Positions 1,975 through 37,982 of a stretch of DNA of 42,502 nucleotides are shown one piece after another. A model generated the notes under the pieces. That model saw only the letters and a list, made by a program, of their open reading frames with translations, was not told the origin of the DNA and did no database searches. The stretch lies in assembly GCF_030532265.1 (NCBI RefSeq), contig NZ_JAUNLM010000015.1, positions 1 through 42,502 on the forward strand. The letters run 5' to 3'. The translations under genes and the position numbers were made by a program. Origin of the DNA: Clostridium sp. Lineage in GTDB: Bacteria; Bacillota; Clostridia; Clostridiales; Clostridiaceae. Within the stretch, counting starts at the first letter, position 1, and each line of letters opens with the position of its first letter.

Positions 1975-2070
1975 ATTATATAAAAATATATAAATACGAA
2001 TATTGACTAATGAATATAAGTATAATATTATGTATATATACGAAATATAATATAAAAAATATAAAAAAAT

Positions 2071-2137
2071 ATCGTATAATATCGCAAATAAGGTTCGATA
2101 GTTTCTACCAGATCACCGTAAATGGTCTGACTACGAT
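2071..2137 (+). ncRNA. Purine riboswitch aptamer, guanine/hypoxanthine class
   Basis: All conserved parts of the purine aptamer are present. P1 is ATCGTA (2071-2076) paired with TACGAT (2132-2137). J1/2 is TATAAT. P2 is ATCGCA/TTCGAT with L2 AATAAGG. J2/3 is the invariant TTTCTACC. P3 is CAGATCA/TGGTCTG with L3 CCGTAAA. The specificity base just before the 3' strand of P1 (position 74 in B. subtilis xpt numbering) is C2131, in the string CTGACTACG. This means guanine or hypoxanthine; adenine riboswitches have U there. The gene downstream is a PbuG-like purine permease, which agrees with the ligand. Confidence 0.93.
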
Positions 2138-2140
2138 TTT

Positions 2141-2208
2141 TCTAAAGATTATATGGACAATCCTTTAGATTAATCAAAGCTTAAAAAGATTTCAAAAACT
2201 AAAGGAGG
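2141..2208 (+). promoter_or_regulatory. Riboswitch expression platform, probably translational (SD-sequestering)
   Basis: No hairpin followed by a T run lies between the aptamer and the start codon. Instead TCCTTTAG (2161-2168) is perfectly complementary to CTAAAGGA (2199-2206), which contains the ribosome binding site of the permease. The same stretch can also pair with the upstream TCTAAAG (2141-2147). These mutually exclusive pairings are what a sequestor and anti-sequestor switch needs. Which ligand state favours which pairing is inference. Confidence 0.6.
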
Positions 2209-7075: not shown

Positions 7076-7106
7076 TTAAAATGCTTTAAGATAGATTAAT
7101 TTGGAG

Positions 7107-8189
7107 ATGATAAAAATTAGTTATGTAGTGTTTAAGGAACTATTTAAAAGGTATAAAGGGAAAAAATTTAATACTTTGGAAAATATCAATTTAGAAATTA
7201 GTAAAGGAGAATTTGTTGTAATAGTTGGTCCAAGTGGTAGTGGAAAGTCTACTCTTTTAGAAATAATTTGTGGATTTGAAGAAGTTACAAGTGGAATTAT
7301 AGAACTAGATGGCAAAGTTATAAATGATATTGAACCAAAGGATAGAAATATATCAATGGTTTTTCAAAACTATGCTTTATTACCACATTTAACAGCATAT
7401 GAAAATATTGCATTTGGAATGAAAATAAGAAAAGTTGATAAAAAAGGAATTCATAATAAAGTTATGTGGGCTGCTAGTATATTAAATCTTCAAGATTGCT
7501 TAAATGCTAAACCTAAAAACTTATCTGGTGGTCAAAGACAGAGAATAGCATTAGCACGTGCCATTGTTAGAGAACCTAAATTATTTTTAATGGATGAGCC
7601 TTTATCTAATTTAGATTCAAAACTTAGAAATCAAACATCAAATGAAATAACAACATTACATAAAAAAATAAATGCAACAACTATATATGTAACTCATGAT
7701 CAAGTGGAAGCCTTAACTATGGCAGACAAAATTGTCATTTTAAATGATGGAGTTATTCAACAAATAGGAAGTCCAAAAGAAATTTATAAAAATCCAAATA
7801 ATATATTTGTAGCACAATTTATAGGAAAACCCGAAATTAATTTGTTTGATTTAGAAATTAAAAAGGATGAGTTAATTATTGAAGGGACAATAAAACTAAA
7901 AAAGAATGATTTATTAAATAATATAGATGAGGGTAAGTATATCTTAGGAGTTAGGTCAGAAAATATAAAAATTAATTTAAATAGTGGAAATATAAAAGCA
8001 AAAGTTGAAAAAATAGAATACTTAGGTAGCGAATATATTGTTTATTTAAATTATTTAAATAAGAAATTTACTAGTAAGGTAATTAATTTAGAAAATATTA
8101 ATTTAAATGATGAATTATATATTAGTTTTGATTTAAATGAAGCTAATATTTTTAATAAAAATAACAAAAGAAATATGAGGGGAGAATGA
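7107..8189 (+). CDS. ABC transporter ATPase, MalK/PotA type
   Basis: Energises the two permeases encoded at 9461 and 10320. The nucleotide-binding domain carries Walker A GPSGSGKST (about 41-49), the Q-loop in MVFQNYALLP, the signature LSGGQRQR and Walker B LFLMDEPLSNLD. The C-terminal 110 residues form a TOBE-like domain, as in sugar and polyamine importers. The start is uncertain. The frame is open from TTG 7101 and ATG 7107 follows six bases later, but the only good ribosome binding site, GGAGATGAT (7103-7111), overlaps both and points to an ATT at 7116. ATG 7107 is given here by convention. The next gene begins 1 base after the stop. Confidence 0.88.
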   Translation: MIKISYVVFKELFKRYKGKKFNTLENINLEISKGEFVVIVGPSGSGKSTLLEIICGFEEVTSGIIELDGKVINDIEPKDRNISMVFQNYALLPHLTAYENIAFGMKIRKVDKKGIHNKVMWAASILNLQDCLNAKPKNLSGGQRQRIALARAIVREPKLFLMDEPLSNLDSKLRNQTSNEITTLHKKINATTIYVTHDQVEALTMADKIVILNDGVIQQIGSPKEIYKNPNNIFVAQFIGKPEINLFDLEIKKDELIIEGTIKLKKNDLLNNIDEGKYILGVRSENIKINLNSGNIKAKVEKIEYLGSEYIVYLNYLNKKFTSKVINLENINLNDELYISFDLNEANIFNKNNKRNMRGE

Positions 8190-8190
8190 A

Positions 8191-9471
8191 ATGAGAAAAA
8201 AATTACTTAGTATTTTAATATTATTACCACTTATTCTTACTGGATGTGGAACAGAGAAAAAAGAAGCAGCAGGAAAGATTGGAGGAACTATAACAGTTGT
8301 AACTGATAGAACTGATGCTGATAAGTTATTCGAGGATATAGAAACAAAATTTAAAGAAAAATATCCAGAAGTTGAGGATGTAGTATTTGAATCATCAAAT
8401 GATTACACAAATTATATTACAACAAGAATGAACACTAAAAACTATGGTGATGTCTTATTTGTACCGTTTAGTATGAATGCAACTCCAGAGGAATATGAAA
8501 ATTATTTTGAACCATTAGGAAATGTTAAGGATTTAGAAGAAAAATATATAGATGTTACAGAAGCTGATTATAATGGAGTATCTTATGGACTTCCAGCTGC
8601 ATTAAATTCATTAGGTATAATTTATAATGAAAATGTTTTAAAGAAAGCTGGAGTAGAAAAAATGCCTACATCTTTAGAAGAAATGATAGAAGCTTGTGAA
8701 AAAATAAAAAAGAATACTGATGCTATACCATTTTATACAAACTATAACAATACTTTAGGTGTATGGGGTGGAGCATTAACTTCATATGGTGGAGAGCAAT
8801 ATAGATCAGAAATGCTTAAAAAAGGAACAGCATTTAAGGAAGGACAGCCTATAAGAGAAGTTATGGATTTATTTTATAATTTATCCTCAAAAGGATTAAC
8901 AGAAAAGGATCCTATAACTGGAGATTACGGAAAGTCAATGCAATTGCTTGCTGATGGGAAAGTGGCAATGTTTATGATGGGATCTCAAGAGGTGCCAGAT
9001 ATACAAAAGTTAGCTAAAGGTGACAATAAAGAAGCAATAAAAATAGCTCCATTTCCAGTAAAATTTAATGGACAAACAAGCATACCATTTGGGGCGCCAG
9101 CAGTTGTTGGAATAAATAAAAATAGTGAAAATAAAGAAACTGCAAAAGCATTTTTAGAATTCTTTATTTCAAATGAAAGTGGTTATGCAAAAGAATTTGG
9201 TGGAATGAGCCCAGATAAAAATAGTTTAAGTGCTGATCAAAAGAAAATGTTTGAAGAAAATAATATAATACTTACAGTTCCAAAGGAAACACCAGAAACA
9301 GATAAATTATATAGCGATATAGCTAATGAAGTTGGTGTTGGAAGACTTAATGACGTTCTTCAAAATACTATAAATATAGGCTTATATCCAAATCAAAATA
9401 AAAGTTATAATGATTATATAAAAGAATTAGAAAATAAGTGGGAAAAAGCAGTAAAAAATAATGAAAAGTAA
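8191..9471 (+). CDS. Substrate-binding lipoprotein of a CUT1-type ABC importer
   Basis: Extracellular solute-binding protein family 1, 426 residues. A lipoprotein signal ends in the lipobox ILTGC with C19 as the lipidated residue, so the protein is anchored to the outer face of the membrane. The mature protein has the two-lobe binding-protein pattern, including YGLPAALNSLGIIYN near 130-145 and GAPAVVGINKNS near 305. Relatives bind sugars or oligosaccharides, but the ligand cannot be predicted here. It overlaps the following permease gene by 11 bases. Its operon continues into a prenyltransferase of the EET locus, so a non-sugar ligand such as a quinone precursor or flavin should be considered (inference). 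Confidence 0.88.
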   Translation: MRKKLLSILILLPLILTGCGTEKKEAAGKIGGTITVVTDRTDADKLFEDIETKFKEKYPEVEDVVFESSNDYTNYITTRMNTKNYGDVLFVPFSMNATPEEYENYFEPLGNVKDLEEKYIDVTEADYNGVSYGLPAALNSLGIIYNENVLKKAGVEKMPTSLEEMIEACEKIKKNTDAIPFYTNYNNTLGVWGGALTSYGGEQYRSEMLKKGTAFKEGQPIREVMDLFYNLSSKGLTEKDPITGDYGKSMQLLADGKVAMFMMGSQEVPDIQKLAKGDNKEAIKIAPFPVKFNGQTSIPFGAPAVVGINKNSENKETAKAFLEFFISNESGYAKEFGGMSPDKNSLSADQKKMFEENNIILTVPKETPETDKLYSDIANEVGVGRLNDVLQNTINIGLYPNQNKSYNDYIKELENKWEKAVKNNEK

Positions 9472-10339
9472 GCTTTTAAAAAAAGAAAGAAAGATTATCT
9501 TTTTCTTTCTTTTTTTTCCTATATTATTGTTAGTATTATTTGGTTTTTTGCCTATTATATCGTTAATAAATTATAGTTTTACTTCATGGAATGGATTATC
9601 TAGTAACAAAGAGTTTGTAGGTTTTGATAACTTTATAAAAATATTTACAGATCCTAATTATATAGAAGTTTTTAAAAATAGTTTGTATTATTTTATATCT
9701 GGAGTTGTTCAAATTGTTATTGGATTATATCTTGCAATAATTTTATCTTTTAAGGTGAAATTAAAAAACTTTTTTAAAGGAATTTATATATTTCCATTAT
9801 TAATTAGTGGAGTGGCAATTTCTATGATTTTTAGAATGTTTTTTACACCTGATGGAACTTTTGATCAAATATTAACTTTTTTAGGACTTGAAAATATTAT
9901 AAATTATTGGCTTGGTGACCCAAGATTTGTTAATTATACTTTAGCTAGTATATCCTTATGGAGATTTACAGGATTTAGTTTTATTATGTATTTTGGTGCT
10001 ATACAGACTATACCAAAGGAATATTTAAAAATAGCAGAAATTGAAGGAGCAACAGTATTCCAAAAAGTTAGATATATTATATTACCTAATATACATACAG
10101 TATTAAAGATTAATTTTACATTACTTATAATAGGTGCTATATCAGCATTTGAAATACCTATGATAATGACAAATGGTTCAAATGGAACAACAACATTTTT
10201 ATTAATGACTATGAAAACTGCTTTTGAAAATAAAAAAATAGGGCTTGCAGCAAGTATGGCAGTAATAATTAGTATTGTGATTATTGTTATGACATTTATA
10301 CAGAAAAGAGTTTGTAAAAATGATGAATATGAATATTAA
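9461..10339 (+). CDS. ABC transporter permease, MalF type
   Basis: First membrane subunit of the importer, 292 residues with six predicted membrane helices. The coupling-helix EAA motif is visible as EIEGATVFQKVRYIILPN near 188-205, the site that docks on the ATPase. It begins inside the end of the binding-protein gene and overlaps the next permease by 20 bases, so the subunits are translationally coupled. Confidence 0.88.
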   Translation: MKSKLLKKERKIIFFFLFFPILLLVLFGFLPIISLINYSFTSWNGLSSNKEFVGFDNFIKIFTDPNYIEVFKNSLYYFISGVVQIVIGLYLAIILSFKVKLKNFFKGIYIFPLLISGVAISMIFRMFFTPDGTFDQILTFLGLENIINYWLGDPRFVNYTLASISLWRFTGFSFIMYFGAIQTIPKEYLKIAEIEGATVFQKVRYIILPNIHTVLKINFTLLIIGAISAFEIPMIMTNGSNGTTTFLLMTMKTAFENKKIGLAASMAVIISIVIIVMTFIQKRVCKNDEYEY

Positions 10340-11159
10340 AAATATAATTTTAAAAATAATTAAATATATAATTTTAATTTTATGGGCTTTAATTATATTA
10401 ATTCCACTTATAACAGTATTTTTTGGGTCATTTAAAACTTTAAATGAGTTTAATTCAACTAATGGAATAGATATTCCTAATAGTTTTTTAAACTTTGAAA
10501 ATTATAAAAAGGCTTTTATTGATGGAAAAATGTTTATAGGATTTTTTAATACTTTTGTATTAATTTTATTTGGAGTAGGTGGAAGTATACTTATAGGATC
10601 TATGGTTGCTTTTATTATTAATCGTTTCCAGTTTAAATACAAAAAAATTATTTTATTTATGTATCTTTTAGTATCTATAGTACCTATGGAAATATCACAA
10701 GTTGCAACATTCAAAATAATAGATGCAATAGGTATATACAATACTAGATTAGCTCCAATAATTTTATATTTAAGTGCTGATGTTTTAATGATTTATATTT
10801 ATTTGCAAATGCTTGAAAAAATACCTAAGGACATAGATAAGGCTGTTTTGTTAGAAGGAGGAAATTATTTTACATTATATAAAAAAGTTATATTTCCTTT
10901 ACTTAAACCAGCCACTGCAACTATTGCAATGATTAAAGTTATATCAATATATAATGATTTTTACATTCCTTTTTTATATATGCCAGGAGAAAACTTAAAT
11001 ACTGTTTCAACTACAATATTCAAATTTATAGGTCCAGATAAAATAGAGTGGAATGTTATATGCGCAGCAGTAATAATAAGTATAATACCAATGATTTTAA
11101 TTTTTTTATTTTTACAAAAGTATATATACAGAGGAATAACAGCAGGGAGTATTAAATAA
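10320..11159 (+). CDS. ABC transporter permease, MalG type
   Basis: Second membrane subunit, 279 residues with six predicted helices and the EAA motif AVLLEGGNYFTLYKKVIFP near 174-192. Starts are possible at ATG 10320, 10323 and 10329; the first is given. Its stop codon shares one base with the start of the UbiA gene (TAATG at 11157-11161), which ties the transporter to quinone biosynthesis in one transcript. Confidence 0.88.
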   Translation: MMNMNIKNIILKIIKYIILILWALIILIPLITVFFGSFKTLNEFNSTNGIDIPNSFLNFENYKKAFIDGKMFIGFFNTFVLILFGVGGSILIGSMVAFIINRFQFKYKKIILFMYLLVSIVPMEISQVATFKIIDAIGIYNTRLAPIILYLSADVLMIYIYLQMLEKIPKDIDKAVLLEGGNYFTLYKKVIFPLLKPATATIAMIKVISIYNDFYIPFLYMPGENLNTVSTTIFKFIGPDKIEWNVICAAVIISIIPMILIFLFLQKYIYRGITAGSIK

Positions 11160-12088
11160 TGAAAGATAGAAATTTTTTTAAAAGAGCATATACTGTTATG
11201 GAAATAAGGACAGGCTTTGCAACTGGACTTCCAGTTTTAAGTGGAGGACTTTTTGGAGCTTACTTATGTGGTGATATAAAGGTTTTATTATTACTACTTA
11301 TGTTTATTTCAGGGTTTTGTTTCAACATTGTAGCTAATATTGCTAATGAAATAAGAGCTTATATAAAACATGAAGAGAATGAAGATACATTTACAGGTCA
11401 TAAAGGTAGTGAAGGTTTAGTAAGGGGAGACGCAAAGATTAGAGATGCGATTATAGCACTTATGCTTATGATTGCATTAGGTGGAGCAACTGGGATTTTA
11501 ATTGTATTAATAACAAAAGATATAAAAATACTTATTATAGGAATTTTAAGTTTAATTGCAGCTATATGTTATTCTTTAGGACCTAAACCATATATACTTT
11601 ATCCAGTTGGAGAAATTGTTTCAGGAATTTTTGTTGGATTAATAAGTTCATTAGTATCAGCTTATATACAACTAGGAAGCTTTAAATTAGAAATTTTTAT
11701 ATATTCTTTAATTTCAATGATAATGACTGTGTTTTTGATGTCTACAAATAATACATCAGATTATATAAAAGACAAGGGAGTAAGGATAACGCTTCCTCAT
11801 GTAATTGGATTTAGAAATTCAATAAAAATACTTATTCCAGAAGGAATAGTAATGGTAGTTTCTTGGATAATCTTATATTTTATTGGAAGTATAAATTTAA
11901 TAATTTTTATTACGGGATTATTTACATTTTACTATTATGGATATGTAAAGTTCTATAAAGATTATTATAAAATACAGGAAGTTTATAAAGAAATGGGAAG
12001 AGAATGGGGTCCTAGACCACTTCTTCTTATATATTCTTTTCATATTTTAGTATCAATAGAGTTTTTATTTTTTATAGTATTTAAGTAA
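11159..12088 (+). CDS. UbiA-family prenyltransferase with altered first Asp motif (MenA/DmkA-like)
   Basis: Membrane enzyme family that transfers a polyprenyl chain onto an aromatic acceptor; in EET loci the acceptor is 1,4-dihydroxy-2-naphthoate (DHNA), giving demethylmenaquinone. The 309-residue protein has 8-9 membrane segments and the MenA-type stretch YSLGPKPYILYPVGE near 138-152. The second Asp motif is intact (N197, D201, D205). The first is not: where MenA has NDxxD this protein has NEIRA (63-67), so the usual second Asp is Ala. Activity may differ from that of the paralogue at 16797, which keeps the Asp. It starts at ATG 11159, overlapping the permease stop by one base. It could be DmkA, a second prenyltransferase, or a specificity variant. 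Confidence 0.8.
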   Translation: MKDRNFFKRAYTVMEIRTGFATGLPVLSGGLFGAYLCGDIKVLLLLLMFISGFCFNIVANIANEIRAYIKHEENEDTFTGHKGSEGLVRGDAKIRDAIIALMLMIALGGATGILIVLITKDIKILIIGILSLIAAICYSLGPKPYILYPVGEIVSGIFVGLISSLVSAYIQLGSFKLEIFIYSLISMIMTVFLMSTNNTSDYIKDKGVRITLPHVIGFRNSIKILIPEGIVMVVSWIILYFIGSINLIIFITGLFTFYYYGYVKFYKDYYKIQEVYKEMGREWGPRPLLLIYSFHILVSIEFLFFIVFK

Positions 12089-12104
12089 AGGAAGGAAAGC
12101 TATT

Positions 12105-12935
12105 ATGGATAAAATGAATTTAATATTAATTAGAAAAAATCCACTATCTATTCCAGCTATTCTTGCAAAGGAACTTGGAATATTTAAAAAGTATAATATA
12201 GATGTTAATTTAAAAGTTCCATATGATTTTAATTTTGGTAGTAAAAGTCCATTTTTAGAAAATGAATCTGATGCTATGATGGGAGATTTAACTTTCTTTT
12301 TTTATATGTTAGATAGAGGGAAAAGATGTATTATAACATCAAATTTAACTAGAACAATAAGTTTAGTTGTATCAAAAAGATTTGATAGTAAAAAAGAAAA
12401 AATAAAATTTGGTGTTAATAGAAAAGGGATGTTTAGGTTGTTTTTAGAAGATGATTTAAAAGATATAGTAAAAAAACCGGAAATTATATGGATTAATAAT
12501 ACTTATGAGCGCATGGAAGCTTTAAAAAGTGGAAAAATAGACGGTTTAGTTGCTATAGAACCTTTTATAACAGAAATGGAAGATTATGGTTTTAAAAAAG
12601 TATGGAGTTTAAGAGAAAGTAAAAGAAACCTTGTTATGTGGTGTTTTGATGAAGATTATTATATAGAAAATAAAGAAGCAGTTAAAAATTTTCATAAGTC
12701 TTTAGAAGAAGCTAAAAAAATATTTAATGAAAGTACAGATAAAGAAAAGGTTGAAATAGGACTAAAATATGCAAAATATGATACTAAAGAAGCGGAGAGA
12801 TTAAAAGAATTTGAGTTTGAATATGGAAAAAATTTCGAGTTAGATGATTTTAATTTTTGTAATGAATGGATGTATAAAAATAATGAAATAAAAAATATGT
12901 ATGATGGCGAAAAGCTTATAGCAAAAATATTTTAA
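12105..12935 (+). CDS. Periplasmic-binding-fold protein (NMT1/THI5/SsuA-like) without export signal
   Basis: A 276-residue protein with the NMT1/SsuA-like N-terminal pattern (ILIRKNPLSIPAILAKELGIF, then a Gly/Asp region DAMMGDL near 58-64, then a second-lobe pattern IDGLVAIEPF near 145-154). Such proteins are normally exported ligand binders. Here the start MDKMNLILIRKN has no signal peptide or lipobox, and AAAGGAAGG before ATG 12105 leaves no room for one. The same fold serves as cytoplasmic enzymes in MqnA and MqnD of the futalosine menaquinone pathway and in THI5. Given its place 16 bases after a DHNA-type prenyltransferase, a role in making or handling the quinone head group is a reasonable but untested idea. 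It is the last gene of the operon. Confidence 0.65.
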   Translation: MDKMNLILIRKNPLSIPAILAKELGIFKKYNIDVNLKVPYDFNFGSKSPFLENESDAMMGDLTFFFYMLDRGKRCIITSNLTRTISLVVSKRFDSKKEKIKFGVNRKGMFRLFLEDDLKDIVKKPEIIWINNTYERMEALKSGKIDGLVAIEPFITEMEDYGFKKVWSLRESKRNLVMWCFDEDYYIENKEAVKNFHKSLEEAKKIFNESTDKEKVEIGLKYAKYDTKEAERLKEFEFEYGKNFELDDFNFCNEWMYKNNEIKNMYDGEKLIAKIF

Positions 12936-12977
12936 TAAAAAACACAGATATAAAATTTTATATCTGTGTTTTTTTTA
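12936..12977. terminator. Strong bidirectional terminator
   Basis: AAAAAACACAGATATAAAA/TTTTATATCTGTGTTTTTT, an almost perfect palindrome with A and T runs. It separates the plus-strand ABC/UbiA operon from the convergent eetA-eetB pair. Confidence 0.92.
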
Positions 12978-12995
12978 TATAAAGTGTAGTTAGTG

Positions 12996-13517
12996 TTAAT
13001 TTTTAAAATAAGGTAATTTTCTTAAGTGAGCTAGTAAGTAATTTGCTGATATTCCAACAAATATTCCAGTTCCTATTCCTGCTATAGATAATATAGGTAA
13101 ATAAAGAAAAATACCAAAATTATTTAAGATTAAAGATGCTACAAGGAGCTGTCCAACATTATGAAAAACAGCAGCAGAAGCACTTACCCCAATTATAGAA
13201 ACTTTATCTTTAAAAAGTTCTTTAACTAAAATTGCTACAAAAAAGCTTAAAATTCCGCCAACTGAACTATAAATTAATGTAGATAAATTCCCTACTAATA
13301 AGCTTGAGAGAATTATTCTTAAAGCTAAAACTAAAAAGGCTTGCTTATAGTTGTCTAATGTATATATTGCAATCATTATAACTAAATTTGCTAGTCCAAG
13401 TTTTGCTCCTGGAGTTATAAATGGTACAGGTATCATATTTTCAATTGTAAAAAGAATTAAAGCCATAGATACTAAAGAAGATATATAAATCATTTTACTA
13501 GTTTTACTTAACTTCAT
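12996..13517 (-). CDS. eetB: EetB: Gx-transporter / 'heptaprenyl diphosphate synthase component I' family membrane protein
   Basis: Small integral membrane protein of 173 residues with five or six hydrophobic segments and the family signature FITPGAKLGLANLVIMIA near 34-51. Databases often name this family heptaprenyl diphosphate synthase component I. In Listeria the homologue EetB works with EetA and Ndh2 in extracellular electron transfer, which fits this neighbourhood far better. It starts 5 bases after the eetA stop on the same strand with no clear ribosome binding site, so it is probably translationally coupled to eetA. Gene order eetA-eetB is as in other EET loci. Confidence 0.85.
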   Translation of the reverse strand: MKLSKTSKMIYISSLVSMALILFTIENMIPVPFITPGAKLGLANLVIMIAIYTLDNYKQAFLVLALRIILSSLLVGNLSTLIYSSVGGILSFFVAILVKELFKDKVSIIGVSASAAVFHNVGQLLVASLILNNFGIFLYLPILSIAGIGTGIFVGISANYLLAHLRKLPYFKN

Positions 13518-13522
13518 ATTTA

Positions 13523-13918
13523 TTAATGTGAAAGTATAATATCATCATCATTAGTACTTTCATCTCCTTTAATTTCAATGATTAATTCGTGTGGTAAGCA
13601 AACTAAACTTTCTGTTACTTTATTTATAGTTCCTTGTTTTACACAAAGTTCATCTTTACAATCTGCATGAATCATCTTAATACCTGATTTATTTATAAGT
13701 ATAGTATTAGTTCCTTTATCTGTGTTTATAACTATTTTTTCATCATTTTTAATAGATGATAAATTAATAGTTTTATATAATTTTCCAGACACCTTTATAT
13801 TAGCGTAAGTGGAAGAATAGTTTTTATTTAAAGCCTTAGCAGATATAAAATAAGGCGTAAAGGATATTATTATAAGAAAAATTATTATAACAATATCTAA
13901 TTTTTTGAATATTTTCAT
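13523..13918 (-). CDS. eetA: EetA: membrane-anchored NusG domain II protein
   Basis: A 131-residue protein with one N-terminal membrane segment (about 8-26) and an extracellular NusG domain II fold. The family cysteines are present: DCKDELC (C87, C92) and LVCLPHELIIEIKG (C107). In Listeria EetA is needed for electron transfer from the quinone to external acceptors; the exact chemistry is unknown. It starts at ATG 13918 with AGGAGAAA upstream and is transcribed divergently from the FMN lipoprotein gene, so one intergenic region of about 196 bp can control both. Confidence 0.87.
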   Translation of the reverse strand: MKIFKKLDIVIIIFLIIISFTPYFISAKALNKNYSSTYANIKVSGKLYKTINLSSIKNDEKIVINTDKGTNTILINKSGIKMIHADCKDELCVKQGTINKVTESLVCLPHELIIEIKGDESTNDDDIILSH

Positions 13919-13955
13919 TAGTTTTCTCCTGATAAATTAATTTTATTAATAAATC

Positions 13956-13980
13956 TGTAATTAAAGTTTAATTTATTACA
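13956..13980. repeat. Inverted repeat in the eetA/pplA divergent control region
   Basis: TGTAAT (13956-13961) and ATTACA (13975-13980) frame a nearly continuous palindrome whose centre is AATTAAAGTTTAATT (13959-13973). It lies about 38 bp upstream of the eetA start. It could be an operator, for example for the LysR protein encoded at 15908, but the background is AT-rich and the match is to no specific known site. Confidence 0.35.
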
Positions 13981-14051
13981 AGAAAAATTGGTAATAGAAA
14001 ATTTTTATACTATATAAAAATATACGTTAATAAAGTTTTATTATTTCAGTG

Positions 14052-14057
14052 TATAAT
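14052..14057 (+). promoter_or_regulatory. Probable -10 box of the FMN lipoprotein gene
   Basis: Perfect TATAAT, 57 bp before ATG 14115. The -35 is poor; TTAATA at 14027-14032 with 19 bp spacing is the best I find, so an activator may be needed. Confidence 0.4.
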
Positions 14058-14114
14058 CCTTGATGAAAATAGTTAATTTTTTTATTTATTTATAAATTTT
14101 TAGGAGGAATAATA

Positions 14115-14594
14115 ATGAAAAGAAAATTATTAGTAGGATTATTTGCAGCTGCATTATCATTATCATTAGTTGCTTGTGGAGGAGATAAACAAACTGATGC
14201 ACCAGCAGCTGATAATAGTAAACAAGAAGCAACTATGAAAGATGGAACATACGAAGTTGAAACAAAAAATGCAGATGATAATGGTGGAAAAGCTAGAGCT
14301 TCAGTTACAATAAAAGACGGAAAAATAACAGAAGCTAAATATAATGAGTTTACTGATAAAGGTGATAAGAGAGAAGATAAAGAATACAATAAAATGATGA
14401 AAGAAAAAGCAGGCACTAATCCTTCAGAATATGAAGTTAAAATTGAAGAAGGTGTAGTTAAAGCTCAATCAGCAGATTTTGATGCAGTAACTGGTGCTAC
14501 AAATTCATCAGCTAAAGCTAAAACTTTATTTGAAGAAGCTTTAAATAATGCAAAAGAAGGAAAAACTGATAAAGAATTAGTTGAAGTTAAATAA
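14115..14594 (+). CDS. pplA: PplA-like FMN-binding lipoprotein (single flavinylation domain)
   Basis: Surface electron carrier of the EET system. A lipoprotein signal peptide ends at SLVAC with lipidated C21. A short linker rich in Ala and Asp follows, then one FMN_bind domain (about 41-143) ending in the flavinylation motif DAVTGATNSS (123-132), where T129 should receive FMN through a phosphoester bond made by FmnB. Listeria PplA carries two such domains; this protein is 159 residues long and has one. AGGAGG before ATG 14115 is strong. It is monocistronic with a strong terminator, suggesting high expression relative to its neighbours. Confidence 0.9.
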   Translation: MKRKLLVGLFAAALSLSLVACGGDKQTDAPAADNSKQEATMKDGTYEVETKNADDNGGKARASVTIKDGKITEAKYNEFTDKGDKREDKEYNKMMKEKAGTNPSEYEVKIEEGVVKAQSADFDAVTGATNSSAKAKTLFEEALNNAKEGKTDKELVEVK

Positions 14595-14608
14595 TATTAT
14601 ATATTTTT

Positions 14609-14642
14609 AAGCCAATGATTTAAGATCATTGGCTTATTTTTA
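14609..14642 (+). terminator. Rho-independent terminator
   Basis: Perfect 11 bp stem AAGCCAATGAT/ATCATTGGCTT followed by a T-rich tail, after the FMN lipoprotein gene. Confidence 0.9.
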
Positions 14643-14798
14643 TTATTTATAAAAATGATTGAATAAAAATGATTATTTAATAAATAATTTAATTTATAAA
14701 AAATAATTTTATATATATATATAGTGAATTTAAAATAAAAAATAAAAATAAGAATTTATATTGTAAAAGTTTAATAAAAAAAGTAAAATATAAACGAA

Positions 14799-14827
14799 CT
14801 GTAAACAAAATGTTAATACAGTATAAG
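14799..14827 (+). promoter_or_regulatory. Possible promoter of the fmnB-lysR-ubiA operon with a spacer-spanning inverted repeat
   Basis: CTGTAA (14799-14804), 17 bp, TATAAG (14822-14827). CTGTA (14799-14803) and TACAG (14817-14821) form an inverted repeat lying between the two boxes, where a bound regulator would block or remodel the promoter. The LysR gene of the same operon is a candidate regulator (inference). Confidence 0.35.
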
Positions 14828-14856
14828 AAAAATTAATAATAAAGGGGAAGAATTTA

Positions 14857-15894
14857 ATGAGGAAAAAAACTAAAATTATAACATTTTTAATGCTTATAGT
14901 ATTTAGTATAGGATTTTATGGATGTAAAAGTAAAAATGATAATGAACCTATAAGTAGAACTGAGCTTTTTATGGGAACATCTATAAAGGTAACTCTTTAT
15001 GAGGGTGGAAGTGAAAAAATATTGGACAAGGTATTTAATAAAATAGTAGAATTGGAAAATTTAGTAAGTATAAATAAATCAAATACAGAAATAGATAATT
15101 TAAATAAAAACTCAGGAATAAAAGCTGTAAAGTTAAGTGAAGATAGTTTTAATATAGTTAAGAAAGGGCTAGAATACTCAAAACTTTCTAACGGGGATTA
15201 TGATATTACAATAGGACCATTAGTTAAACTTTGGAGCATAGGATTACCTGAGGCGAAAGTTCCTACAAAAAAAGAAATTTCACAAGCTATTAAAAGTATA
15301 GATTACTCGAATGTTTACATAGATGAAAATAATAGAGAAGTTTTTTTGAAAGAAAAAGGAATGATGTTAGACTTAGGAAGTATTGCAAAAGGATATGCAG
15401 CTGATGAAATAGCAAAAATACTTAAAGAAGAAGGTGTTAATTCAGCAATTATAGATCTTGGTGGAAACATATATGCATTAGGTTATAAAAAAGAAAATAA
15501 TAAATGGAAGATAGGTATACAAGATCCATTTACTGATAGAGGTAATGCAATTGGTACAGTTACTGTAGCTAATAAATCTGTTGTAACTAGTGGTATTTAT
15601 GAAAGGTATATAGAAAAGAATGGTAAAAAATATCATCATATATTAAATCCTAAAACGGGGTACCCATATGAAACAAATATTGCTGGAGTATCTATAATAT
15701 CAGATAAATCAATAGATGGAGATGCACTATCTACATTAGTTTTTACCAAAGGAATAGATAAAGGAATAGAGTTTGTTAATAAAATTGATGGAGTAGATGC
15801 AATTTTTATAACTAATGATAAGAAGGTTTATGTTACAGATGGTATAAAAGAAGACTTTAAAATAATTAATGAAAATTATAAATTAGTTAATTAA
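14857..15894 (+). CDS. fmnB: FmnB: ApbE-family FAD:protein FMN transferase (lipoprotein)
   Basis: Covalently attaches the FMN half of FAD to Thr in DxxTGAT motifs, here most likely T129 of the neighbouring lipoprotein. The 345-residue protein has an N-terminal signal ending in GFYGC (C23), so it acts on the outer surface; the lipobox is atypical with Phe at -3. ApbE landmarks are RTELFMGTSIKVTLY near 35-49, the DLGSIAKGYAADEIA nucleotide-binding stretch near 172-186, IDLGGNIYALG near 200-210 and the metal-binding DGDALST near 287. It is first in an apparent operon with lysR (13 bases on) and the second ubiA. Confidence 0.92.
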   Translation: MRKKTKIITFLMLIVFSIGFYGCKSKNDNEPISRTELFMGTSIKVTLYEGGSEKILDKVFNKIVELENLVSINKSNTEIDNLNKNSGIKAVKLSEDSFNIVKKGLEYSKLSNGDYDITIGPLVKLWSIGLPEAKVPTKKEISQAIKSIDYSNVYIDENNREVFLKEKGMMLDLGSIAKGYAADEIAKILKEEGVNSAIIDLGGNIYALGYKKENNKWKIGIQDPFTDRGNAIGTVTVANKSVVTSGIYERYIEKNGKKYHHILNPKTGYPYETNIAGVSIISDKSIDGDALSTLVFTKGIDKGIEFVNKIDGVDAIFITNDKKVYVTDGIKEDFKIINENYKLVN

Positions 15895-15907
15895 AGGGGG
15901 AAGGAAC

Positions 15908-16783
15908 ATGCAAATAGATAGTTTAAAATATTTTTATGAAGTAGCGGAGTTAAAAAGTATATCTAAGGTGGCAAATAATTCACATATATCTCAACCCGCA
16001 CTAAGTCATCAACTTTTAAAATTAGAAAAAGAGCTTGGAGCAAAATTATTAGAAAGAAGTAATAGAGGTGTAGAATTAACAGAGCAAGGGAAGATAGTGT
16101 ATAATTACGCAAAGAAAATTTTAAATTATCATAATAATATGGTACAAGATGTAAATATAAAAAATTCTTTAAAATACGACCTTGAAATAACAAATGCTAA
16201 TATATCAGCAAATTTCTTAGTTTCTAGAATTGCAAAAGATATAGGGAAAATATTTAAAAATTTTAATGTTAATATAAATAATAATTGGGAAAGTAATCAA
16301 CAATCTTTATTACTTCATAATAAGTCAGATATAGTTGTAGGGTGCAATATGATATATGATGTAGATTTATCATCAAATTATATAGGAAGTGATAACCTTA
16401 TATTTATAAGCAGAGAAAAAATAAAAGAAGAAAACATATCTAATCAATCAGTAGCTATATTAGATGATGGAAGAAGTAATATTTTAAATAGCATTAGAGA
16501 CTTTGATAACATTAATATAACCTTAAGAAGTAATTGCTTAAGCACTATAAAAGAATATTTAAATAATAGCAATACTTTAGCAATAGTTCCTAAAATAGCT
16601 GTAAGGTCAGAGATAGAGTCAGGGGAGTTTATAGATTTAGGCTTTAAAAATTATGAAAAGTCATATGACTTATTTATAACTTATAGAAAAAATATTGAGA
16701 ATAGAATTAAAAAGAAAATAAATATATTTATTAAAGATTTAGAAAAAGTTTTAAATTATGATAATAAAAATATAGCGGTTTAA
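15908..16783 (+). CDS. LysR-family transcriptional regulator
   Basis: A 291-residue regulator with an N-terminal winged helix-turn-helix (about 1-60; the recognition region includes SKVANNSHISQPALSHQLLKLE) and a LysR-type ligand-binding domain from about 90 on. It lies between fmnB and the second ubiA, 13 bases after the former and about 13 before the ATG of the latter, so it is co-transcribed with EET genes and probably controls them. The ligand is unknown; quinone precursors, flavins or a redox-linked metabolite are candidates. LysR proteins usually regulate a divergent neighbour. Here none is directly divergent, which makes targets at the eetA/pplA intergenic region or the fmnB promoter more likely. 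Confidence 0.88.
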   Translation: MQIDSLKYFYEVAELKSISKVANNSHISQPALSHQLLKLEKELGAKLLERSNRGVELTEQGKIVYNYAKKILNYHNNMVQDVNIKNSLKYDLEITNANISANFLVSRIAKDIGKIFKNFNVNINNNWESNQQSLLLHNKSDIVVGCNMIYDVDLSSNYIGSDNLIFISREKIKEENISNQSVAILDDGRSNILNSIRDFDNINITLRSNCLSTIKEYLNNSNTLAIVPKIAVRSEIESGEFIDLGFKNYEKSYDLFITYRKNIENRIKKKINIFIKDLEKVLNYDNKNIAV

Positions 16784-16796
16784 ATAGGTGAGCAAT

Positions 16797-17759
16797 ATGA
16801 CTTTAAAAGGATATTTAAGTTTTGTTGAAATACAGACAAAAATAGCTAGCTTAATTCCATTTTTATTTGGAACTTTATATAGTATATACAGATATGGAAA
16901 GGTAGACTTAGCGAATTTAATATTTATGTTTATATCAATGATATGTTTTGATATGGTAACAACTGCAATAAATAATTATTGTGATTATGAAAATGAAATA
17001 AAACATAGTAATGGAAAATATTTTGGTAAAAATCCAATGTTTATTCATAAAATTTCTAAAAAGAAAGGGATTATAACTATATATACATTACTATTTATAT
17101 CTATAATATTTGGAATAATATTAACTGTTAGGACAAGTTTGTTAGTATTATTTTTAGGAGTAATATGCTTTTTTATAGGAATATTTTATACTTTTGGACC
17201 AATACCTATATCAAGAATGCCTCTTGGAGAAGTTTTTTCAGGATTATTTATGGGGTTCTTAATTACATTTTTAACTATATATATTAATATATTTGATTTA
17301 GGATATTTTTCGATAAGTATATTAAATGGTGAATTTATAGCAAAAATCAATATTTTTGAAACTATTAGCATATTTTTAGTAAGTATACCTTTAATAACAG
17401 GAATAGCTAATATAATGTTATCTAATAACATATGTGATTTAGAAGATGATAAAAAAGTATCAAGGTTCACGTTGCCATATTATATAGGAGAAGATTTTGC
17501 TATAAAATTATATAAAATACTATATTATTTTGGATACTTTGCAATTTTAATATCAATTATTTTAAAAATTTTACCTATAACATCAATTATAGTTTTTTTT
17601 ACTATTCCTATCGTAAACAAGAATATAAAAGAATTTGAAAATAAGCAAATTAAATCAGAAACTTTTGTATTGGCAGTAAAAAATTTTGTCATTATAAATT
17701 TTGTATATATACTAGCTTTAATTGGCAATTTTGTTATTTTTAATATATTAGATATTTAA
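16797..17759 (+). CDS. UbiA-family prenyltransferase (MenA/DmkA-like), second copy
   Basis: Integral membrane prenyltransferase of 320 residues expected to join a polyprenyl diphosphate to a quinone head group such as DHNA. Both Asp-rich sites are recognisable: NNYCDYENE (N59, N60, D63) and NNICDLEDD (N210, D214, D218). MenA-like YTFGPIPISRMPLGEVFSG is near 131-149. The frame also opens at GTG 16788, but this GTG is part of the AGGTGAG ribosome binding site, so ATG 16797 is the better start. Of the two UbiA proteins in the locus this one keeps the first-motif Asp and is the stronger candidate for the DHNA prenyltransferase. It is probably last in the fmnB-lysR-ubiA operon; no clear terminator follows. 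Confidence 0.83.
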   Translation: MTLKGYLSFVEIQTKIASLIPFLFGTLYSIYRYGKVDLANLIFMFISMICFDMVTTAINNYCDYENEIKHSNGKYFGKNPMFIHKISKKKGIITIYTLLFISIIFGIILTVRTSLLVLFLGVICFFIGIFYTFGPIPISRMPLGEVFSGLFMGFLITFLTIYINIFDLGYFSISILNGEFIAKINIFETISIFLVSIPLITGIANIMLSNNICDLEDDKKVSRFTLPYYIGEDFAIKLYKILYYFGYFAILISIILKILPITSIIVFFTIPIVNKNIKEFENKQIKSETFVLAVKNFVIINFVYILALIGNFVIFNILDI

Positions 17760-17808
17760 ATTTATTATGATATATAAAAAAAAATTATGATATTCATTGA
17801 AATTAGTA

Positions 17809-17842
17809 GGGGATTAGTTGGCTATTCTTAAGGGGTAAGGGG
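17809..17842 (+). other. Cluster of G4 tracts upstream of ndh2
   Basis: GGGG occurs three times (17809-17812, 17832-17835, 17839-17842) with a further GG between, within an intergenic region that is otherwise about 80 percent A/T. It lies about 36 bp before the Rex operator. No known motif was recognised. Confidence 0.35.
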
Positions 17843-17873
17843 AATTTAAATATAAGTTTTACATTTAAAAAGA

Positions 17874-17902
17874 TTGTTTGTTAATTAATAAACAAATATA
17901 GA
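17874..17902 (+). promoter_or_regulatory. Promoter of ndh2
   Basis: TTGTTT (17874-17879), 17 bp, TATAGA (17897-17902). The predicted start leaves a leader of about 80 bases before ATG 17990. The Rex-like operator fills the spacer. Confidence 0.55.
17878..17895. promoter_or_regulatory. Rex (NADH/NAD+ sensor) operator
   Basis: TTGTTAATTAATAAACAA matches the clostridial Rex consensus TTGTTAAnnnnTTAACAA at 13 of its 14 defined positions. It lies exactly between the -35 and -10 of the ndh2 promoter, where bound Rex would block RNA polymerase. Rex leaves DNA when NADH rises, so ndh2 would be induced when the cell needs an electron sink. The gene downstream is an NADH dehydrogenase, which makes the match functionally coherent. 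Confidence 0.78.
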
Positions 17903-17989
17903 CAGTAATAAGTTTAACTTATAGAATAAACATGCTAAAGAAGTTAAATTAAAATATTAAAAACAAAATTAAAGAAGAGAGGGAATAAT

Positions 17990-19912
17990 ATGTCAACTAA
18001 AATTGTTATTTTGGGTGCAGGTTATGCAGGGGTTCATGCAGCTAAAAAATTAGCAAAAAAGTATAAAAAGAATAACGATGTTGAAATTACATTAATTGAT
18101 AAAAATCCGTATCATACACTAATGACAGAATTACATGAAGTTGCTGGTGGAAGAGTACCAGAGGAATCTGTTAAAGTAGAACTTTCAAGAATATTTCATA
18201 GAACGAAAGTAAAAGTTGTTGTTGATTTTATTGAAAATGTAGATACTGATAATAATGTAGTTACTACAAAGCAAGGTGAATACAAATATGATTATCTAAT
18301 GGTTGGAATAGGTAGTGAGCCTGCATTTTTTGGAGTTCCAGGTGTAAAGGAAAATGGATTTACTTTATGGTCTTTAGAAGATGCCCTAAAAATAAAGAAG
18401 CATATTAAAAATAGAGTTAAAGAAGCTTCATTTGAAAGAAATTCAGAAAAAAGAAAAAGAATGCTTACATTTGTTGTGGCAGGATCTGGGTTTACTGGAA
18501 TAGAAATGGCTGGAGAGTTACTAGAGTGGAAAACTACTTTAGCTAGAGAATATAGAGTTTGTGAAGATGAAATAAAGATATTAGTTGTTGAAGCTATGTC
18601 AACAATATTAAATATGCTTGATAGAAAGCAAGCAGATAAAGCTGAAAAATATATGGTTAAGCATGGTGTTTCTATTCTTAAAAACTCGCCAATAGTTGAA
18701 GTAACTAAAAATACTATTAAATTAAAAGATGGAAAAGTGATTCCAACAGAAACATTAATATGGACGTGTGGTGTACAAGCAAATCAAGACTTAGAAGATG
18801 TTGATGTAAAGAAAGCTAAAGCAGGAAGATACTTAGCTAATAAATATATGCAAGCTGAAGGAAAAGAAAATGTATATGTTGTTGGAGATGTAGCATATGT
18901 TGAGGAAAATGGAGGAAAATCAAATCCTCAAATAGTTGAAGCAGCAGAACAAACTGCAACAACAGCTGCTAAAAATATAATAGCATCAATAGAAAATAAA
19001 GAAAAAGTTGAATTTAAATCAAGTTATCATGGTTTCATGGTATCTATAGGTGGAAGATATGCAGTAGCAGACCTTATGGGAATTAAGTTATCAGGATTTT
19101 TTGCTATGGTGATGAAACATCTTATAAATATGGTCTATTTATTCGGAGTTAATAATGTACATGCCGTATATAATTATCTTCAACATGAGTTCTTTGCTAT
19201 GAAGGAAAGAAGATGTATAATGCGAGGTCATTTATCTTCAAAAGGAAATAGGTTATGGCTTGTTCCTCTTAGAATATATATAGGATCTTTATGGCTTATT
19301 GAAGGTCTTAAAAAATTAATTGGAGAAGAAACATGGAAGAAAGCATTTGAATCTGCATCAAGTGCATCAGATGCAGCTGGTGGAAGTATAGGTGCTTACA
19401 TCCAATCTTTATTTGATAATATGACAATCGGATGGGATAGCTGGATGAAGATGGGTAATGTAAAGATGCCATTTTCTTGGCTTCAAGATACTGTTACTGG
19501 AGCATCAGCAGCTACAACTGATGCAGCTGTATCAAATATGCCAACACCTATATTTGATAGTATGCCAAAGTTTTATGAATCTATAATGGAGATATTTATG
19601 CCAAATCCTGAAGTGGCAGTTTGGTTCCAAAGGATAGTTGTGTTAACAGAAATTGCTATAGGGTTATGTTTAATAGCTGGATTATTTACATTTTTAGCAT
19701 CAGCAGCATCAGCATTTATGACTGTTAACTTTATATTCTCTGCAATGGCAGGATGGGATATATTATGGTTTACATTTGGTAGTATTGCTTTAATGTGTGG
19801 AGCTGGAAGAACATTTGGATTAGACTATTATGTAATGCCTTGGATTAATAAATTTGTTGGTAACTTATGGATGGGAAAAAGAGAACCAATATATGAAATA
19901 CATGGTAAGTAA
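17990..19912 (+). CDS. ndh2: Ndh2: type II NADH dehydrogenase with C-terminal membrane domain
   Basis: Oxidises NADH and reduces a membrane quinone; it is the electron entry point of the EET chain. Residues 1-400 form the NDH-2 flavoprotein: FAD-binding GAGYAG at 9-14, NADH-binding GSGFTG at 165-170, and the FAD-contacting VYVVGDVAYV near 297-306. Classical NDH-2 proteins end near 400. This one is 640 residues, with a C-terminal part (about 415-640) holding several hydrophobic helices (for example near 420-435, 545-590 and 595-615) in a DoxX-like pattern. Listeria EET Ndh2 has the same extra membrane domain. GAGAGGGA precedes ATG 17990. It is transcribed alone from a promoter with a Rex operator. 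Confidence 0.93.
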   Translation: MSTKIVILGAGYAGVHAAKKLAKKYKKNNDVEITLIDKNPYHTLMTELHEVAGGRVPEESVKVELSRIFHRTKVKVVVDFIENVDTDNNVVTTKQGEYKYDYLMVGIGSEPAFFGVPGVKENGFTLWSLEDALKIKKHIKNRVKEASFERNSEKRKRMLTFVVAGSGFTGIEMAGELLEWKTTLAREYRVCEDEIKILVVEAMSTILNMLDRKQADKAEKYMVKHGVSILKNSPIVEVTKNTIKLKDGKVIPTETLIWTCGVQANQDLEDVDVKKAKAGRYLANKYMQAEGKENVYVVGDVAYVEENGGKSNPQIVEAAEQTATTAAKNIIASIENKEKVEFKSSYHGFMVSIGGRYAVADLMGIKLSGFFAMVMKHLINMVYLFGVNNVHAVYNYLQHEFFAMKERRCIMRGHLSSKGNRLWLVPLRIYIGSLWLIEGLKKLIGEETWKKAFESASSASDAAGGSIGAYIQSLFDNMTIGWDSWMKMGNVKMPFSWLQDTVTGASAATTDAAVSNMPTPIFDSMPKFYESIMEIFMPNPEVAVWFQRIVVLTEIAIGLCLIAGLFTFLASAASAFMTVNFIFSAMAGWDILWFTFGSIALMCGAGRTFGLDYYVMPWINKFVGNLWMGKREPIYEIHGK

Positions 19913-19929
19913 TTAGTATTTAATTATTA

Positions 19930-19962
19930 TAAAGTAGAGAATGATTTATTCTCTACTTTATA
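19930..19962 (+). terminator. Rho-independent terminator
   Basis: TAAAGTAGAGAAT/ATTCTCTACTTTA perfect 13 bp stem with a 5-base loop after ndh2. The T tract is short. Confidence 0.72.
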
Positions 19963-19995
19963 TAAAAATATTAATGTAGTGTGTGATAATAGTAT

Positions 19996-20026
19996 TTGTA
20001 TAAGTTATATTATCAGACTTTATATT
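19996..20026 (+). promoter_or_regulatory. Possible promoter of dmkB
   Basis: TTGTAT (19996-20001) and TATATT (20021-20026) with 19 bp spacing. GATAATA (19985-19991) and TATTATC (20008-20014) form an inverted repeat over the -35 region. Confidence 0.3.
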
Positions 20027-20060
20027 AATAAAGTATTTATATAGAAAACGAGGGAGAAAA

Positions 20061-21029
20061 ATGGGGAATTTTTGGACTGATTATCCTATTATAAATAAAG
20101 AAATAGAAGAAGTAAAAAAACAAATAAGTTTAAATGCAAAATGTAAGGACAAAGTTATAGAAAAGAGTATATTAGATTTATTAAATTCAGGTGGTAAAAT
20201 GTTAAGGCCTGCCTTTTTGATTATTGCTTCAAAATTTGGAGATTATAATGAGGAAAGAGTAAGGGCACTTGCTTCTGTTGTAGAGATGTTTCATATGGCA
20301 ACATTAGTTCATGATGATGTAATAGATGATGCACCTCTTAGAAGGGGAAAGGAAACTGTTCAATCTAAATATGGTAAAAATTATGCTGTATATATAGGTG
20401 ATTATTTATTTTGTTTATGTTTTAGGATACTTGGGACAACATCATCAATAGAAAGGGGAATTGATGTTGATGCTAAAGTTATGTCTAGAATTTGTTTGGG
20501 AGAGGTTGAGCAGTTAAATTCAAGATTTAATAGAAATGTATCAATAAAAGATTATTTAAAGAGAATATCAGGAAAAACAGCAGAACTTTTTTCGCTTAGT
20601 TTTTATATAGGTGCAGCTGAAAGTTCATGTGATAAAAAGATTTGTAGACTGTTTTGGGAGATAGGACATAATATAGGGATGGCATTTCAAATAATTGATG
20701 ATATATTAGATTACATAGGTACAGATGAGGAAATAGGAAAAAAATCAGGAAATGATTTAAAGGATGGAATATATACTTTACCATTATTATTAGCATTAAA
20801 AAATAATAAAGAAGTATTTGAAAATTTATTAGATAAGGAATTTTATTCTAATGAGGAAGTTAATAAAATAATAAATTTAGTCAAGGAAAATGATGGTATA
20901 AGTGAATCTATAATTCTTGCTGAAAAGTATTCAAATAAGGCATTTAAAAATATAGATAAATTGCCAGAAAATGAGTATAAATATATATTAAAAGAAGTAA
21001 CTGAAAAGTTACTTAAAAGAAGCTATTAA
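20061..21029 (+). CDS. dmkB: DmkB: trans-polyprenyl diphosphate synthase
   Basis: Makes the long isoprenoid chain (probably hepta- or octaprenyl diphosphate) for demethylmenaquinone. The 322-residue protein has both Asp-rich motifs, DDVIDD at 85-90 (with LRRG just after) and DDILD at 213-217, plus GGKMLRP at 44-50 that binds IPP. The residue five places before the first motif is Ala80, a small residue, as in long-chain enzymes. Its product is the donor for the UbiA enzymes at 11159 and 16797. GAGGGAG precedes ATG 20061, and it is a single gene between two terminators. Confidence 0.9.
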   Translation: MGNFWTDYPIINKEIEEVKKQISLNAKCKDKVIEKSILDLLNSGGKMLRPAFLIIASKFGDYNEERVRALASVVEMFHMATLVHDDVIDDAPLRRGKETVQSKYGKNYAVYIGDYLFCLCFRILGTTSSIERGIDVDAKVMSRICLGEVEQLNSRFNRNVSIKDYLKRISGKTAELFSLSFYIGAAESSCDKKICRLFWEIGHNIGMAFQIIDDILDYIGTDEEIGKKSGNDLKDGIYTLPLLLALKNNKEVFENLLDKEFYSNEEVNKIINLVKENDGISESIILAEKYSNKAFKNIDKLPENEYKYILKEVTEKLLKRSY

Positions 21030-21036
21030 ATGGAGG

Positions 21037-21080
21037 TCTATATTAAGTTAAAATTACTTAATATAGACTACTTTATTTTT
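21037..21080 (+). terminator. Rho-independent terminator
   Basis: GTCTATATTAAGT/ACTTAATATAGAC perfect 13 bp stem followed by T-rich sequence; end of dmkB and of the EET locus. Confidence 0.75.
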
Positions 21081-37813: not shown

Positions 37814-37982
37814 ATAAAATAATTTACTCTAATTGGAAATTTTATTTGTTAAATATAAATTATATTGCAAAACAAATTATATTTAAATATTAATAATAAA
37901 TTACAAAATTTTAATTAATAAAAGTATTGAATTTATTAAAATATAGTCATATAATAGATAAAAAATAAATGTAAAAAATTTT

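Follow-up and report, generated by a model that had tools for sequence, protein, structure and literature searches.

The stretch of DNA analysed here (the window) consists of 42,502 nucleotides, positions 1 to 42,502 of contig NZ_JAUNLM010000015.1 from Clostridium sp. (assembly GCF_030532265.1), and it contains two adjoining sets of genes (Table 1), viz. a locus of the type for flavin-based extracellular electron transfer (FLEET; EET for extracellular electron transfer) at 12996-21029 and, in front of it, a six-gene cassette for an ATP-binding cassette (ABC) importer, a divergent UbiA-family protein (UbiA2) and a protein with the fold of NMT1 and other solute-binding proteins (SBPs). The EET gene set is a known one, and the added cassette, a candidate for import and prenylation, may be the new part. 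Assignment of the locus to the FLEET type is well supported by the family membership of its proteins and by the presence of a common gene set in many relatives. Scans with Pfam and NCBIfam models found, where an earlier reading made without database searches (the sequence-only reading) had placed them, eetA and eetB, apbE together with the gene for a secreted FMN_bind lipoprotein carrying a flavinylation site, ndh2 with a C-terminal membrane domain, a polyprenyl synthase gene (dmkB/hepT; 287.5 bits with TIGR02748, cut-off 456.55) and two ubiA-type genes, one of which encodes a dedicated MenA-type prenyltransferase. The same reading had described the lipoprotein as flavinylated and had referred to its gene as pplA. 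Its FMN_bind domain (the only match to this family in the whole source genome), its lipobox and a lone D-A-V-T-G-A-T site at residue 123, which we take to be the target motif of ApbE, agree with this. However, the Listeria PplA model (NF041941), whose cut-off is 325 bits, gives the protein 96 bits, and the protein has one FMN_bind domain only, not the two sites of the Listeria type; thus it is PplA-like but not PplA. The division of the locus into at least five transcription units, also proposed earlier, is consistent with its strand switches, gaps and hairpins at 14608 and 21035, which delimit a forward cassette, a reverse eetBA pair and forward blocks of pplA, apbE-lysR-menA, ndh2 and hepT. 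Terminator-like sites are in excess in the scan (7 observed, 2.2 expected); the number of promoter-like matches is about what chance would give (113 observed, 111.4 expected).

The genes within 7107-21029 that lie beyond the Listeria core, as had been noticed before, are four ABC-importer genes, UbiA2, the NMT1-like gene and lysR. The first six of these make up the cassette, which has the composition of a CUT1-type importer (an SBP_bac_1 protein, two BPD permeases and a MalK-type ATPase with a TOBE domain, the latter reaching 422 bits for the NCBIfam UgpC subfamily, cut-off 432), and its genes follow one another on one strand at intervals of 1, -11, -20, -1 and 16 bases. When named genomes were scanned for UbiA2, ten loci were obtained (G and L numbers denote genomes and loci), and in nine of them the six genes occur in identical order; the tenth, from Romboutsia weinsteinii (L010), begins within UbiA2 near a contig end and its UbiA2 row is partial. 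A profile of the NMT1-fold protein (alignment A1; both A1 and A2 comprise the window and named genomes only) gave full-strength matches, with E below 1e-90, in 10 of 195 relatives, which together with L006, L007, L009 and L010 from the scan of named genomes makes 14 cassette genomes. The NMT1 gene is retained in all of them and UbiA2 in 13. An EET-type Ndh2 (E up to 1e-100) is present in 64/195 relatives, inclusive of all ten that were found by the profile (Fisher p 8.7e-6; p 2.2e-6 inside the genus, 68 genomes), and it is also present in 4/4 of the added genomes, hence in 14/14. This is the comparison across relatives which the sequence-only reading had recommended for judging how far the extra genes are conserved; its FLEET interpretation holds for the EET gene set, but it overlooked that six of the extras form a portable cassette with a distribution of its own, as well as the shortage of MenD, MqnA and MqnD described below.

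The cassette and the EET genes are also linked physically in half of these genomes. Around ndh2, 12 of the 14 have eetA, eetB, a PplA-like gene, apbE and hepT (orthologue labels in the loci are BLAST matches to proteins of the window or of L052), and for the remaining two only the genes nearest to ndh2 can be listed, viz. menA-type and hepT in CCUG 7971 and PplA-like, apbE and hepT in Niameybacter. The cassette adjoins EET genes in 7/14 (window, L001, L002, L006, L010, L050 and L051). Among the ten named loci, EET genes are directly downstream in four (Clostridium sp. Ade.TY, C. sardiniense, Faecalimicrobium dakarense and R. weinsteinii), the flanks of L003, L004, L005, L008 and L009 are unrelated genes as judged by eye, and the stretch of L007 stops just beyond the cassette. 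Cassette and ndh2 are on separate contigs in G003, G016, G036 and G058, 2.6 Mb apart in G052 and non-adjacent in Niameybacter (L009), and in CCUG 7971 a contig end conceals any link; the co-occurrence with Ndh2 persists in the five genomes where the cassette sits elsewhere. In G039 and G053, the genes run on one strand in the order apbE-lysR-ndh2-hepT-ABC-SBP-P1-P2-UbiA2-NMT1, the hepT frame being 12 bases and 1 base, respectively, away from the cassette, and a MenA gene was not found within these stretches. A polyprenyl synthase, an importer and a UbiA-type transferase in a row would have the look expected of a unit that imports and prenylates a headgroup. These results bear on an alternative explanation, according to which this is a plain FLEET locus, the ABC genes being an ordinary oligosaccharide importer that is adjacent by chance and UbiA2 and NMT1 its passengers. 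The MalEFGK-type components speak for it, as do the five cassettes of 14 located on another contig or megabases from ndh2, with Niameybacter as a sixth, and the SBP, whose closest solved relative, the manno-oligosaccharide-binding protein 6fuv (E 4.7e-36), binds mannotriose, because of which a sugar substrate is possible. However, it does not readily account for the presence of Ndh2 in every cassette genome across several families, the retention of UbiA2 and NMT1 in the unit or the unbroken runs in G039 and G053, and glycosidase or sugar kinase genes were not seen by eye inside the cassettes; we therefore regard it as unlikely.

Table 1. Features of the window, with the evidence on which each is named
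Feature	Position	Strand	Evidence
Six-gene cassette	7101-12935	+	Conserved unit, gene-family scans
Cassette gene 1: MalK/UgpC-type ABC ATPase with TOBE domain	7101..8189	+	PF00005 8.6e-37, TOBE_2
Cassette gene 2: family-1 solute-binding lipoprotein (SBP)	8191..9471	+	PF01547 9.8e-27; visible lipobox
Cassette gene 3: ABC permease, MalF/UgpA type	9461..10339	+	PF00528 7.3e-17
Cassette gene 4: ABC permease, MalG/UgpE type	10320..11159	+	PF00528 1.9e-11
Cassette gene 5: UbiA2, divergent MenA-related UbiA-family protein	11159..12088	+	PF01040 1.4e-13
Cassette gene 6: NMT1/SBP-fold protein, cytosolic (no signal peptide)	12105..12935	+	Read by eye
eetB, ECF-S-like flavin adenine dinucleotide (FAD) exporter subunit (ECF, energy-coupling factor)	12996..13517	-	PF07456 1.7e-46
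eetA, NusG domain II membrane protein	13523..13918	-	PF07009 1.8e-30
PplA-like lipoprotein, single FMN_bind domain	14115..14594	+	PF04205 4.5e-8; lipobox
Terminator-like hairpin 3' of lipoprotein gene	14608..14636	+	13-pair stem, T tail
apbE/fmnB, flavin mononucleotide (FMN) transferase lipoprotein	14857..15894	+	PF02424 6.2e-91
LysR-type regulator	15908..16783	+	PF00126 1.9e-20
MenA/DmkA-type 1,4-dihydroxy-2-naphthoate (DHNA) prenyltransferase	16788..17759	+	NF004752 321.6 bits, cut-off 289
ndh2, C-terminal DoxX/DoxD-like membrane domain	17990..19912	+	PF07992 (Pyr_redox_2) 1.2e-43, DoxX 4.6e-6
hepT/dmkB polyprenyl diphosphate synthase	20061..21029	+	PF00348 5e-68
Terminator-like hairpin at end of locus	21035..21069	+	14-pair stem
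Purine riboswitch	2052-2153	+	Rfam RF00167, 87 bits
T-box leader	37972-38227	+	Rfam RF00230, 131.3 bits

If the EET genes of these organisms work with a quinone, then its ring has either to be made or to be acquired, and the searches for ring-synthesis genes, which cover ten of the 14 cassette genomes (those other than L006, L007, L009 and L010), are informative in this regard. MenD is above its cut-off in 4/195 genomes (G027, G051, G080 and G096), none of which has the cassette, and thus in 0/10 of the cassette genomes searched, inclusive of the source genome, where it has no match. PF02621, the family of MqnA and MqnD, exceeds its 26-bit cut-off in 8/195 genomes with a maximum of 41.3 bits, and the only two cassette genomes of the ten among these are G000 (41.3 bits; its match, C50, is the single one of the source genome) and G024 (38.4 bits). 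Both matches are lipoprotein genes adjoining an ABC permease and an ATPase (L066:8053-10445 and L093:1891-4283), and as far as the matches were examined no convincing MqnA/MqnD was found in the ten genomes. For MenB, which was looked at in the source genome only, there is a weak fragment at a contig edge. Since MenD over the cut-off and convincing MqnA/MqnD are lacking in the ten genomes, the ring of the electron carrier probably must come from outside the cell.

A second gene arrangement of possibly similar significance was found in other relatives. The menaquinone decarboxylase MqnL (TIGR03701) is above the cut-off in 22/195 genomes (172 of 173 matching rows summed, 488 matches), of which 21 have Ndh2 (p 8.8e-11), and in 0/10 cassette genomes (p 0.013 within the genomes that have Ndh2), in which the model has no match at 1e-30 either. 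Among the 22, PF02621 is matched in G019 (36.7 bits) and G147 (35.5 bits), and G080 has MenD. In all ten of the MqnL loci that were read (L052, L053, L054, L059, L065, L071, L072, L073, L075 and L076) the order UbiD-UbiA-UbiX is seen, with UbiD and UbiX of L054, L059 and L065 named by eye, and in nine an NMT1-type binding protein of an ABC transporter follows directly 3'. The UbiD of L052 scores 679 bits with the menaquinone decarboxylase model (cut-off 495.9), and its UbiA is MqnP-like yet below the cut-off (294.5 vs 430). The MqnP-like/MqnL/MqnM loci are thus candidates for a truncated futalosine pathway with a putative importer of its own, and their make-up suggests that the transporter takes in 1,4-dihydroxy-6-naphthoate or a relative of it, to which the import of riboflavin is a rival. 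EET genes lie within the stretch in six of the ten loci, a count to be read with the manner of selection, as L052, L053, L054, L059 and L065 were chosen for holding ndh2 and one of the other five has EET genes.

Based on these observations, we consider the chances about even that the cassette supplies quinone for EET. In the mechanism envisaged, the ABC importer with its lipoprotein SBP would bring in a naphthoate or quinone headgroup, either as such or as a conjugate; UbiA2, or MenA in the genomes that have it, would link this headgroup to HepT's polyprenyl diphosphate product; Ndh2 would move electrons from NADH to the resulting demethylmenaquinone-like pool; and this pool would pass them to the ApbE-flavinylated lipoprotein. 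The NMT1-fold protein may bind the imported aromatic compound, in which case it would most likely serve as a sensor and brake for the transporter, or as a carrier, in the manner of the cytosolic domains of NrtC and CmpC. What the analysis shows is the gene content, its conservation, the phyletic and physical linkage and, in the genomes searched, the lack of MenD and of convincing MqnA/MqnD; the substrate, the activity of UbiA2 and this role are what we infer. The NMT1-fold protein shows no signal peptide or lipobox by eye (no predictor was used), and in the window and most relatives its sequence starts with the fold's first strand, a few frames having alternative upstream starts. Its nearest outside relatives in the 195-genome set are, in 14/15 cases, the ABC binding proteins of the second arrangement and their cousins (rows L036, L074 and L075 were excluded from the pocket comparison). 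In L068, L069 and L070 an arylsulfotransferase-like gene (PF05935 3.3e-88 in L068, where it was tested) is followed immediately by a related NMT1-type ABC transporter, and this suggests uptake of phenolic compounds. It could also be argued that what the importer takes up is a futalosine-like quinone precursor carrying a ribosyl or glycosyl group, and that the NMT1-fold protein acts, in the way of MqnD, as the enzyme by which the naphthoquinol is formed or set free. However, this protein has no PF02621 match, transport SBPs give it a higher Z than MqnD or MqnA do, and a 6-carboxylated product would require a decarboxylase, whereas the ten cassette genomes lack MqnL as stated above; hence this explanation appears very improbable.

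For UbiA2, membership of the UbiA superfamily is indicated by its PF01040 score (51.1 bits, cut-off 34.2) and by a model (predicted local distance difference test, pLDDT, 74.5) whose best Foldseek match is 4tq4 (E 3.2e-5), i.e. one with the UbiA fold. Among the 36 UbiA rows of a tree, it makes up a single long-stemmed clade (100/98), which groups with MenA rows with support (99/98) and is separate from the MqnP-like rows, a placement which is unsure owing to the long branches. PF01040 matches occur in 63/64 genomes with Ndh2 vs 42/131 others. G035, G039 and G053 have one such match each, and since UbiA2 is present in their loci, it appears by elimination from the match counts to be their only UbiA-family protein. 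In G036 (L067) the reverse is seen: UbiA2 is absent, the ABC genes lead directly to the NMT1 gene, whose open frame begins early, and importer and NMT1 are retained with a MenA-type gene located elsewhere. The NMT1 protein thus accompanies the importer rather than UbiA2, and because of these reciprocal cases the two UbiA kinds look exchangeable in part. In C. sartagoforme-like genomes, a small lipoprotein gene lies beside the distant MenA-type gene (L079:6628-7197, L090:2658-3170, L091:2718-3203 and L092:2746-3243), with weak PplA-like similarity in two cases.

Several points weigh against the proposed supply of quinone, in addition to the mannotriose-binding relative of the SBP. UbiA2 is below every NCBIfam MenA-type cut-off (51-99 bits; best 98.7 vs 289). 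Its first motif is N-E-I-R-A/G in 12/12 full-length rows, so that the first Asp of NxxxD, presumably the canonical motif of the superfamily, is missing, and mainly for this reason its chemistry is in doubt; the second motif, DxxxD (D201 and D205), is conserved in 12/12. Further, a MenA-type gene is also present in 10/14 cassette genomes, counted without Niameybacter (window, L001, L006, L010, G003, G052, G196, G016, G036 and G058). Due to the altered motif and the additional MenA-type genes, UbiA2 could be viewed as a protein of UbiA fold that binds quinone in partnership with the transporter, the prenyltransferase chemistry being done by the MenA-type proteins. However, G035, G039 and G053 have no other UbiA-family match and yet retain hepT and ndh2, and this possibility seems quite improbable. 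The source genome (2.48 Mb, 131 contigs) is 92.7% complete, and the locus reading of the MqnL route is partly biased by the selection for ndh2. In F. dakarense the matches to the SBP, and likewise those to one of the permeases, fall in two reading frames (L006:1837-3068 and 4016-4760), and this copy is consequently broken or misread, through decay or sequencing error. The co-occurrence tests, moreover, ignore phylogeny, and the 14 cassette genomes may represent only five or six lineages, for which reason the counts are not independent; with one third as the base rate, that many lineages would all have Ndh2 by chance in about 1 in 250 to 1 in 750 cases. Going beyond the supply of quinone by the cassette, it may tentatively be supposed, with less confidence than an even chance would imply, that importers of menaquinone precursors comprise two separate families, one represented by the ABC transporter of the cassette and the other by those of the MqnP/MqnL/MqnM loci, which feed EET in quinone-less fermenters with headgroups scavenged from neighbours. 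On this view the NMT1 protein would be an SBP that has been relocated into the cytosol, where it detects or ferries the headgroup, and UbiA2 would be a prenyltransferase whose metal site has been remodelled. Quinones are growth factors exchanged between gut bacteria. If the proposed supply of quinone by the cassette is right, these clostridia rely for EET on neighbours that make quinones, and there are named genes, some in named strains, with which the import of menaquinone precursors can be addressed.

The existence of such importers has been anticipated. Ravcheev and Thiele 2016 (PMC4746308; here and below the statements cited are those of the available parts of each paper) held that there should be importers for the precursors of menaquinone, still to be annotated, and in 2017 these transporters were called undescribed (PMC5738691); a description of such an importer or cassette was not found among the literature matches listed, most subscription papers being outside their coverage. 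The FLEET/EET system of Listeria monocytogenes is an eight-gene cluster, lmo2634-lmo2641 (PMC9973259, PMC8837199), whose EetB is a FAD-exporting ECF-S subunit (PMC9973259). Common to this cluster and the Clostridium locus is the grouping of ndh2, apbE/fmnB, a flavinylated lipoprotein, eetA, eetB, a DHNA prenyltransferase and a polyprenyl synthase. The Clostridium locus differs in that its lipoprotein has one domain whereas PplA is flavinylated at two sites, in the addition of lysR and the importer/UbiA2/NMT1 cassette, and in that no ECF-T/A gene was seen among the proteins scanned and no MenD match in the genome. For the late futalosine pathway, MqnP/MqnL/MqnM have been predicted (PMC4746308). 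Other clostridial EET genomes have this set next to an ABC importer and show no convincing MqnA/MqnD; it pairs an MqnP-like UbiA with a decarboxylase, whereas the cassette contains UbiA2 and lacks a decarboxylase. In NrtC and CmpC the regulatory domain is fused to the ATPase, whereas in the cassette a separate NMT1 protein is encoded beside a MalK-type ATPase. A further parallel is Lactiplantibacillus plantarum, which combines FLEET genes with quinone auxotrophy and uses DHNA from outside (PMC10746273). Its quinone uptake was expected in 2023 to proceed via yet unidentified pathways (PMC10746273), whereas in the Clostridium locus a candidate importer is encoded together with the EET genes.

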